32,208 bases of DNA. Source: an uncultured Actinomycetes bacterium. GTDB taxonomy: Bacteria; Actinomycetota; Actinomycetes; Nanopelagicales; Nanopelagicaceae. The translations under genes and the position numbers were made by a program. Of the stretch, positions 1 to 2,984 are shown piece by piece. Every line of letters starts with the position of its first letter. The first letter of the stretch is position 1. Under the pieces are notes generated by a model. It saw only the letters and a program-made list of their open reading frames with translations. It ran no database searches and had not been told where the DNA came from. The DNA lies in the NCBI GenBank assembly GCA_903844115.1, contig CAIMSI010000130.1, positions 1 to 32,208 of the forward strand, read 5' to 3'.

Positions 1-571
1 CAATTGCAGCTAACGGAGATTTTTCTGATGCAACCACTACGCATGTATTTCAAGTAGTGAGCACTCCTACAACTGCGCTTACGAGTGAAAGAAGGGGAGA
101 TTTTTCGCTTGCAAAAATCGTTACAACGCCAATAGCTTCTGGAATAGTAAAGTTATAAAAAGGTCCAGAAACTTGGTTTGTTGAACCGGCAATTGTAGAA
201 ATTTTATCGCTCCAACCTGCATACCAAACCCACATATCAATTGCCGCAGATACTTCAGAGGTCGCTGCACTTACGCTCTTACCTTCGGATGCAACAATCA
301 CATCGATAAATTCACTCTTGCGCGATTCCATCATTTCTGCAACACGGTAAAGAATTTGACCTCGCAAATATGCTGTGGCCGAAACCCATCCAGCTTGTGC
401 GCCACGTGCTGCAACAACTGCTTCACGAAGATCTTTACGAGATGCTTGGCAAGGATTAGCAAGAAATTTTCCTTTGCTGTCCTTCACTTCGTACACGCGG
501 CCTGATTCACCACGTGGAAATGCACCATTGATGTAGAGCTTGTAAGTTTTCATTACATCGATACGTGACAT
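1..571 (-). pseudogene. Aldehyde dehydrogenase family gene with in-frame TGA, cut by left window edge
   Basis: This is the N-terminal part of a second aldehyde dehydrogenase (NAD-binding Rossmann region). The frame opens at ATG 571, directly after the TAA of the upstream dehydrogenase (TAAATG), so the two are translationally coupled; ATG 553 is an alternative start. Residues about 12-25 (LYINGAFPRGESGR) and 147-172 resemble the start and the cofactor-binding region of the family. At codon 174 (positions 50-52) there is a TGA. The same frame then stays open to the window edge and reads NTCVVVASEKSPLAAI, the expected continuation of the family (normally G-N-T at this point). One GGA to TGA change would explain it. 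The catalytic Cys and Glu would lie beyond the edge. Partner genes suggest acetaldehyde oxidation downstream of DeoC. It could be a true pseudogene, a recent mutation or a base-call error; the stop codon itself is certain. Confidence 0.8.
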
Positions 572-2014
572 TTATTTGACCACCTTTACATAAGCAGATA
601 AACCATGACGTCCACCCTCGCGGCCCCAGCCCGATTCTTTATATCCTCCGAATGGGCTTGCTGGATCAAACTTGTTAAATGAATTGGTCCAAATGACACC
701 TGCCTTTAAACGCTGGGCTGTCCACAAAATCTTGGAACCCTTATCGCTCCAGATTCCTGCAGATAGTCCGTAAGGAGTGTTATTGGCCTTCTCAATCGCC
801 TCTTGTGGTGTTCTAAATGTAAGAATAGAAAGAACAGGTCCAAATATTTCTTCCTGCGCGATGCGATGAGATTGTGCAACCCCAGAAAAAATTGTTGGTT
901 TAAACCAGAATCCCTCAGTAGGAAGCTCACATTGTGGGCTCCATCGTTGGGCTCCTTCTTGATCTCCAGAATTCGCTAGCTCATGAATTTTTTCAAGCTG
1001 AGCTTTGCTGTTAATCGCTCCCAAGTCCGTGTTTTTATCGAGTGGATCACCCACGCGAATGAGCTCCATCCGTGCCTTTAATTTACTTGTTACTTCATCA
1101 AGAACACTCTCCTGCACTAGCAATCGAGATCCGGCACAACAGACGTGCCCTTGATTGAAGAAAATACCGCTAATGATGCCCTCGACTGCCTCATCCATTG
1201 CCGCGTCTTCATAAATAATATTTGCGCCCTTACCGCCAAGTTCCAATGTGAGAGCTTTTCCGGAACCAGCGATTGCTCGTGCGATTCCTTTTCCAACCTC
1301 AGTAGATCCAGTAAATGCAATCTTTTGGATACCCGGATGATTCACAAGGTAGGCGCCCGTTGTTCCGTCACCCGTCACAATATTTACTACACCCGCCGGC
1401 AGCCCTGCCTGCTGACAAACTTCTGCAAATAAAAGCGCAGTCAGTGACGTGGTCTCAGCGGGTTTTAATACAACGGTATTTCCCGTAGCCAGCGCTGGCG
1501 CAACTTTCCATGAAAGCATTAAGAGTGGGAAATTCCAAGGAATTATTTGGCCTACCACTCCATGAGGTTTTGGAGAACTTCCAAGTCCAGCAAAATCTAA
1601 CTTATCAGCCCAACCTGCGTGGTAGAAAAAGTGCCCAGCTGCAAGTGGAATATCAACATCACGAGTTTCACGAATTGGCTTTCCGTTATCCATTGTCTCA
1701 AGAACGGCAAATTCTCGAGAACGTTCTTGGAGAATTCTGGCAATGCGATAAAGATACTTCCCACGTTCAGAAGCTGGCATCTTTGACCAGATTTTTTTAT
1801 AAGCATCTGTTGCAGAATTTACTGCCTTATCTACATCCGTATTTGACGCAAAGGCAATGCGGGCCAATGGCTTTCCAGTAGCAGGATTGATGGTTTCAAA
1901 GCTCTTGTTTCCTTTGGCAGGCTGGAACTTTCCATTGATGAAGAGCCCGTACTCACTTTTTATATCAACAATGGAAGTTGACTCTGGGGCTGGTGAATAT
2001 TCGAATTTAGTCAT
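572..2014 (-). CDS. NAD(P)-dependent aldehyde dehydrogenase
   Basis: A full-length aldehyde dehydrogenase of 480 residues, the usual family size. The cofactor-binding motif PWNFP is at 159-163, the GSTEVG turn at 236-241, the general-base glutamate in LELGGK is E258, and the catalytic cysteine is C292 in the motif NQGHVCCAGSR (287-297). EEIFGPVL in the C-terminal third is also typical. It lies 19 bases after deoC and abuts a second, broken dehydrogenase gene, so all three are probably one transcript. DeoC makes acetaldehyde, so acetaldehyde to acetate (or acetyl-CoA) is the likely reaction. That substrate is inferred from context; the family covers many aldehydes. The start ATG at 2014 has only a weak Shine-Dalgarno sequence. 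Confidence 0.93.
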   Translation of the reverse strand: MTKFEYSPAPESTSIVDIKSEYGLFINGKFQPAKGNKSFETINPATGKPLARIAFASNTDVDKAVNSATDAYKKIWSKMPASERGKYLYRIARILQERSREFAVLETMDNGKPIRETRDVDIPLAAGHFFYHAGWADKLDFAGLGSSPKPHGVVGQIIPWNFPLLMLSWKVAPALATGNTVVLKPAETTSLTALLFAEVCQQAGLPAGVVNIVTGDGTTGAYLVNHPGIQKIAFTGSTEVGKGIARAIAGSGKALTLELGGKGANIIYEDAAMDEAVEGIISGIFFNQGHVCCAGSRLLVQESVLDEVTSKLKARMELIRVGDPLDKNTDLGAINSKAQLEKIHELANSGDQEGAQRWSPQCELPTEGFWFKPTIFSGVAQSHRIAQEEIFGPVLSILTFRTPQEAIEKANNTPYGLSAGIWSDKGSKILWTAQRLKAGVIWTNSFNKFDPASPFGGYKESGWGREGGRHGLSAYVKVVK

Positions 2015-2033
2015 TTTTGGTCTCAGCTACCTT

Positions 2034-2984
2034 CTAGTCCAGTGTCACATTGTTCATACTTGAATACCTACCATCGCGCATTTTCATTCTTTGCATTATG
2101 AGATCGTTGAGAAGCGCACTTGCTCCAATTCTAAATAACGAAGGATCAAGCCAATCTTCTCCAGCAGTTTCTTTAACAAGAACAAGCTGTTTTATTGCAT
2201 CTTTTGTCGTACGAATTCCACCGGCTGGCTTTACGCCAATTTTGCGCCCTGTGAGCGCGTGGAAATCGCGAACAGCTTCTAGCATGACCAGAACCACAGA
2301 GGGCGTTGCTGCTGGAACAACTTTCCCTGTACTTGTCTTTATAAAGTCCGCGCCAGCTAACATTGCGATATATGAAGCTTTCCGCACATTATCGTAAGTG
2401 ACTAGTTCACCGGTTTCGAAAATAACTTTTAAATGGGCCTTTTCACCACACAAAGATTTAATCAGAACAATATCGTCATAAATTTTTCCATACTTACCAG
2501 CAAGAAAGGCGCCTCGATCAATGACCATATCAATTTCGCCAGCTCCAGCATCTAACGCATCTTGCGTATCCTGGATTTTTACCGCTTGGCTAGCGCGACC
2601 AGATGGAAATGCCGTCGAAACCGCCGCTACTGGAACATCTTTTCCTCCAATAGAATCAAGATGTGTTCGAGCAATCGAAACCATATCGTTATAAACACAG
2701 ACGGCCCCAACATGGGGAACTGTGGGATCAGAAGGGTCTGGACGTACTGCTTTGTTACAAAGCGCTCTCACTTTTCCAGGGGTATCAGCGCCTTCAAGTG
2801 TTGTGAGGTCTACCATTTTGATTGCAAGATCAATGGCTAAATTTTTACTAGAAGTCTTGATAGAGCGAGTGCCCAACATTGCCGCTCGTGCATCCACACC
2901 AACCTGATCGACAGGCGAAAGCTTTAATAGGAACTTTTTGAGAGAAGTTTCATCATGAACAAGTTCCGGACTTTTCGTTTGCAC
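2034..2984 (-). CDS. deoC: Deoxyribose-phosphate aldolase (DeoC)
   Basis: DeoC cleaves 2-deoxyribose-5-phosphate into glyceraldehyde-3-phosphate and acetaldehyde, the last sugar step of deoxynucleoside breakdown. The 316-residue protein has the class I aldolase TIM-barrel signatures: the Schiff-base lysine K216 in DFIKTSTGK (213-221), the second active-site lysine K252 in GVKPAGGIR (250-258), and D152 in EIDMVI. The N-terminal extension of about 50 residues compared with the E. coli enzyme is usual in actinobacterial homologues. The start is GTG 2984, the only plausible initiator before the conserved region. A -10 box lies exactly 6 bases upstream of it, which suggests a leaderless mRNA. It heads an apparent operon with two aldehyde dehydrogenases and is divergent from a nucleobase permease. 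Confidence 0.96.
   Translation of the reverse strand: MQTKSPELVHDETSLKKFLLKLSPVDQVGVDARAAMLGTRSIKTSSKNLAIDLAIKMVDLTTLEGADTPGKVRALCNKAVRPDPSDPTVPHVGAVCVYNDMVSIARTHLDSIGGKDVPVAAVSTAFPSGRASQAVKIQDTQDALDAGAGEIDMVIDRGAFLAGKYGKIYDDIVLIKSLCGEKAHLKVIFETGELVTYDNVRKASYIAMLAGADFIKTSTGKVVPAATPSVVLVMLEAVRDFHALTGRKIGVKPAGGIRTTKDAIKQLVLVKETAGEDWLDPSLFRIGASALLNDLIMQRMKMRDGRYSSMNNVTLD

Follow-up and report, generated by a model that had tools for sequence, protein, structure and literature searches.

A contig-tip TGA, very probably a strain-level nonsense allele or a base error, in the putative split-off pseudo-domain gene of an actinobacterial ALDH16

Why should a reading frame that keeps its family sequence on both sides of a TGA be interrupted at a conserved glycine? 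We investigated this question in a stretch of 32,208 nucleotides from an uncultured Nanopelagicaceae bacterium (hereafter the window), which is the entire contig C130 of its assembly (G000:C130, positions 1–32208), base 1 being a contig end. The interrupted frame lies on the minus strand and runs for 173 codons from ATG 571 to the TGA at 50–52 (50–571); past the stop it stays open to the window edge (1–49) with sequence that aligns with relatives, giving a 190-codon frame with a single TGA. Alignment placed the TGA at the Gly of a G-N-T segment, and the aligned relatives all carry Gly there. These observations reproduced the preliminary description, which had read the gene as a second aldehyde dehydrogenase (ALDH) and had proposed either a young pseudogene, with an intact upstream paralogue doing the work, or a wrong base, while judging recoding unlikely.

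We characterized the two ALDH genes by structure matching and motif inspection. The upstream gene (572–2014, minus strand; 480 aa), which carries ELGGK (258) and GHVCC (289), found its best PDB match in 6mvr over chain residues 11–476 (569 bits), with the best non-ALDH16 entry at 422 bits. Similarly, a complete relative of the interrupted gene (G023, L004; 280 aa) matched 6mvu/6mvr best, over residues 501–766 of 767 and thus to the C-terminus; this C-terminal match was made on the relative, the window's own copy being seen only as two overlapping pieces. We take PDB entries 6mvr, 6mvs, 6mvt and 6mvu to be LsALDH16. One paper (PMC8160307) identifies LsALDH16 as the ALDH16 of Loktanella sp., and describes the ALDH16 C-terminal domain as a non-functional cofactor-binding domain. 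On these matches, the interrupted gene is the split-off C-terminal pseudo-domain of an ALDH16, about 280 aa long and without catalytic Cys and Glu motifs, and the upstream gene is the catalytic half of the same split enzyme: a partner, not a spare. Neither the label of an ordinary second aldehyde dehydrogenase nor the idea of a redundant intact paralogue is supported by this comparison. At 569–574, TAAATG sets the TAA of the catalytic half directly against the ATG of the pseudo-domain gene, a junction that suggests coupled translation.

The same arrangement was found in a scan of related loci, for which we used the best 80 of 562 confirmed candidates; these come from related genomes, some of them recurring in our other set of relatives, and the counts given for them are not independent. 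The catalytic ALDH frame was separate from the second gene in 79/79 testable loci (the 80th is cut upstream), ending 406–628 bases before the second gene's core motif, at or near the second gene's start. Downstream of that core, both catalytic motifs occurred in 0/80 of these best-matching loci, and a T-x-W-x-x-x-G type tail ended the frame in 78 of the best 80. One exception to this tail is cut by a contig end, and in the other (L087) the second gene ends differently. The catalytic half is nearest to the ALDH16 N-terminal domain, and its partner supplies an ALDH-like domain without catalytic Cys or Glu that ends at the ALDH16 C-terminus; the two domains are not in one polypeptide, being encoded by separate abutting genes. 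Because the halves are separate genes in the window and separate frames in all 79 testable loci, we use the term split ALDH16 rather than treating the pair as a standard member of the family. The catalytic motifs sit in the upstream gene, and the search for a catalytic Cys and Glu farther along the interrupted frame, suggested in the preliminary description, does not apply to a family of this length.

Extending the frame leftwards led to a second contig of the same assembly (144 contigs, 1.44 Mb, completeness 98.13, contamination 2.44%). The final 167 bases of contig C52 (3921 bases; C52:3755–3921) match window positions 1–167 with 7 mismatches (96%), and C52 has a Gly codon in place of the TGA. 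From the overlap onwards the rest of the frame is open on C52, as a 3' part of 145 codons that reaches the gene's natural end, KTVWHPIGV; beyond the gene lie a convergent add, then deoA, cdd and an ABC permease (names by family search). The nearest relative, G023, holds deoC, both ALDH genes, add, deoA, cdd and ABC genes in this order on a single stretch, and the source genome gave matches on C130 and C52 only (E up to 1e-20). Because the G023 gene order is kept across the seam and only these two contigs match, C52 is most likely the continuation of C130. Gene order and the absence of a third match also rule out C52 as an unrelated paralogue, and gene order speaks against contamination, which C52 could in principle represent given the bin's contamination value. 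We infer the intact gene across the overlap, because C52 holds its last 145 codons only. The other end of C130 matched no other contig of the assembly.

The differences between C130 and C52 appear strain-like. Five of the seven are silent third-position changes; the remaining two alter the protein, one being the stop itself and the other a Val at a position occupied by Gly or Ala in relatives, which could reflect relaxed selection on the stop haplotype. On the coding strand, each of these two differences is a G-to-T change. We considered an oxidative-damage (G-to-T) artefact and set it aside as a mere lead, there being two such changes only, with differing neighbouring bases.

Comparison of the codon in close relatives, a check that the preliminary description had recommended, returned Gly in C52 and in 12/12 same-genus relatives whose codons could be lined up. 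The C52 protein was matched in 15 of 32 genus genomes; 13 besides the source genome cover the site, none with a stop (0/13), and the match in G024 is a later fragment only. Furthermore, Gly was scored at the site in 80/80 scan loci (71 G-N, 6 G-S, 3 G-C; best 80 of 562), a score biased towards Gly in that, at loci without a Gly at the fixed offset, the position could be moved by up to 3 residues. No other copy that we examined has the TGA. Ahead of the stop, and over the 16 codons compared beyond it, dN/dS against the nearest relative points roughly to coding constraint; silent sites are near saturation and some pairs could not be computed, and these values are read as a rough sign of constraint only. 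Five relatives (L249–L253) in which another ALDH gene had been flagged for an in-frame TGA were rejected as parallels: in 5/5 the TGA stands immediately ahead of the start codon, which is nothing unusual.

Strain variants can break contigs in metagenome assemblies. We performed a contig-end control on 40 other contigs, whose 80 ends (18 masked, 62 readable) were compared together with the 4 ends of C130 and C52 as 400-base stretches, a length that bounds the visible overlap from above. Besides C130/C52, three inexact overlaps were found (98.3%, 98.5% and 96.1%), namely C1/C63, C3/C17 and C33/C69. Third-base differences in an open frame accounted for 5/6 in C3/C17 and 10/15 in C33/C69; in C1/C63, where the open frame is doubtful, they accounted for 4/6. 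A stop in an open frame was found in none of these three overlaps. The control also returned three exact overlaps (141, 141 and 120 bases), and the other end of C52 has exactly 141 bases in common with C112. Default MEGAHIT ends at k = 141. PMC8121793 reports MEGAHIT with default settings for one lake dataset, which is not necessarily the source of the window. Contigs of this bin seem to have been broken by a mixture of strain haplotypes.

Four elements of the picture are directly seen: the contig end, the inexact overlap, the second copy without a stop and the conservation of gene order across the seam. Because the contig ends within 52 bases of the site and the C52 copy has no stop, we hold it very probable that the TGA is a single-base difference confined to the tip of a strain-specific contig: either a nonsense allele present in one strain or an erroneous base. 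The assembler would have stopped where two strain haplotypes diverge; the stop haplotype would encode a pseudo-domain half that breaks off within its cofactor-type fold and is probably lost. Against this explanation, thin coverage at the tip is an assumption, and the three other strain-like tips carry no stop.

The balance between a true strain allele and an error on a thin tip is near even. A base-call or assembly error, already raised in the preliminary description and one of the two live readings, comes just short of an even chance: the site lies within 52 bases of the contig end and no other examined copy has the stop, whereas random errors should not favour third positions, where 5 of the other 6 differences fall, and the three other inexact tips carry no stop. 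A real segregating nonsense allele, by which one sampled strain lost the pseudo-domain gene, is a serious candidate, if a somewhat doubtful one. The tip resembles a genuine strain haplotype in its predominance of silent changes, and it bears a second amino-acid change at a small-residue site; however, 13/13 other genus genomes covering the site lack the stop, and the signs of coding constraint on both sides of it mean that any loss would be recent.

A fixed young pseudogene of the organism, the upstream ALDH serving as the active gene, is improbable, unless C52 is a contaminant or comes from a minority strain. In its favour, the assembly does contain the stop, with another amino-acid change close by, but the same assembly holds C52, which lacks the stop, is open over its 145 codons and has the expected gene order, so that a copy free of the defect exists in the genome; the upstream gene, moreover, is the partner half. 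The pseudogene proposal is therefore not supported as a settled state of the organism and persists in its weaker form, as the one-strain allele just described. Reading of TGA as glycine or another residue in this organism can be dismissed almost outright: the frame does continue past the TGA, and the called tRNAs of the draft are not a full set (those for Cys and Tyr were not called), so that an unusual tRNA might in principle have escaped it, but prfB (RF2) is present above cut-off, no UCA anticodon, as for Gly, Trp or Sec recoding, was called among the 37 tRNA matches in the draft genome (one weak match was not called by ARAGORN), and TGA is the stop of 11/29 window genes picked from the open reading frame list, including nuoL, nuoH and menF (isochorismate synthase), names that family searches confirmed. 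Neither RF2 loss nor an absence of TGA stops, the marks of genome-wide recoding, was found, in agreement with the earlier judgement. The stop itself matters little, and the wider lesson is that what looks like a pseudogene or a recoded codon close to a contig end calls for a comparison with the bin's other contigs.

The interrupted gene is more interesting than its interruption. Directly upstream of the ALDH16 pair lies deoC (2034–2984, minus strand), encoding deoxyribose-phosphate aldolase (TIGR00126 above cut-off), and deoC holds this position on the same strand in 67/67 scan loci with enough flank (among the best 80 of 562). The other salvage genes vary more than deoC: within at most 5 kb of flank, 44 of the 80 loci (best 80 of 562) had add, 31 had deoA and 32 had cdd. 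A deoxynucleoside salvage cluster is formed by deoC and the split ALDH16 in the window with add, deoA, cdd and the ABC permease on C52 (window positions 572–2984 and locus L023).

That a conserved ALDH16 half lacking catalytic function accompanies deoC wherever the locus could be checked suggests both a substrate, acetaldehyde, and a partner. Gene context and the fused form indicate that the pseudo-domain half most likely pairs with the catalytic half into a working enzyme, since the two are fused in one lineage and encoded by abutting genes in another; the predicted function, from context, is most likely the oxidation of acetaldehyde released by DeoC. Taken as a whole, we rate as slightly better than even the proposal that ALDH16 in Actinobacteria is a two-gene enzyme, in which tandem translation downstream of deoC yields a catalytic ALDH and a separate ALDH-like partner without catalytic function, the two forming a hetero-oligomer that oxidises DeoC-derived acetaldehyde. 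If true, ALDH16, a family that is poorly understood, would gain a definite metabolic role in the salvage of deoxynucleosides, and the role of the pseudo-domain could be tested by simple gene removal. We found no paper on split or deoC-linked ALDH16 among the open-licence PMC papers listed; split forms could already have been reported in the primary ALDH16 structure paper.

The locus can be compared with three known systems. Like other strain-variant contig breaks in metagenome assemblies, C130/C52 is an inexact overlap between contig ends of one bin, and it differs from them in carrying an in-frame stop. Compared with LsALDH16, window gene 1 and the relative of gene 2 match the N- and C-terminal parts, respectively; LsALDH16 is one chain of 767 aa, whereas the window and 79 of the best 80 scan loci have two separate reading frames. 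In the ALDH16 crystal structure the two domains are assembled and a dimer is seen. The third comparison is with rhizobial fused ALDH16 proteins encoded next to deoC. On Agrobacterium tumefaciens pAspH13-3a, deoC is followed by one fused ALDH16 of 798 aa (WP_041694765.1) that contains both halves and is 54% identical to window gene 1 and 36% identical to the G023 relative of gene 2, and Sinorhizobium medicae pSMED01 has a deoC-like frame (43% identical) together with a 794-aa frame. These rhizobial loci share with the window a deoC directly upstream, and differ from it in that ALDH16 is a single reading frame of 798 or 794 aa.
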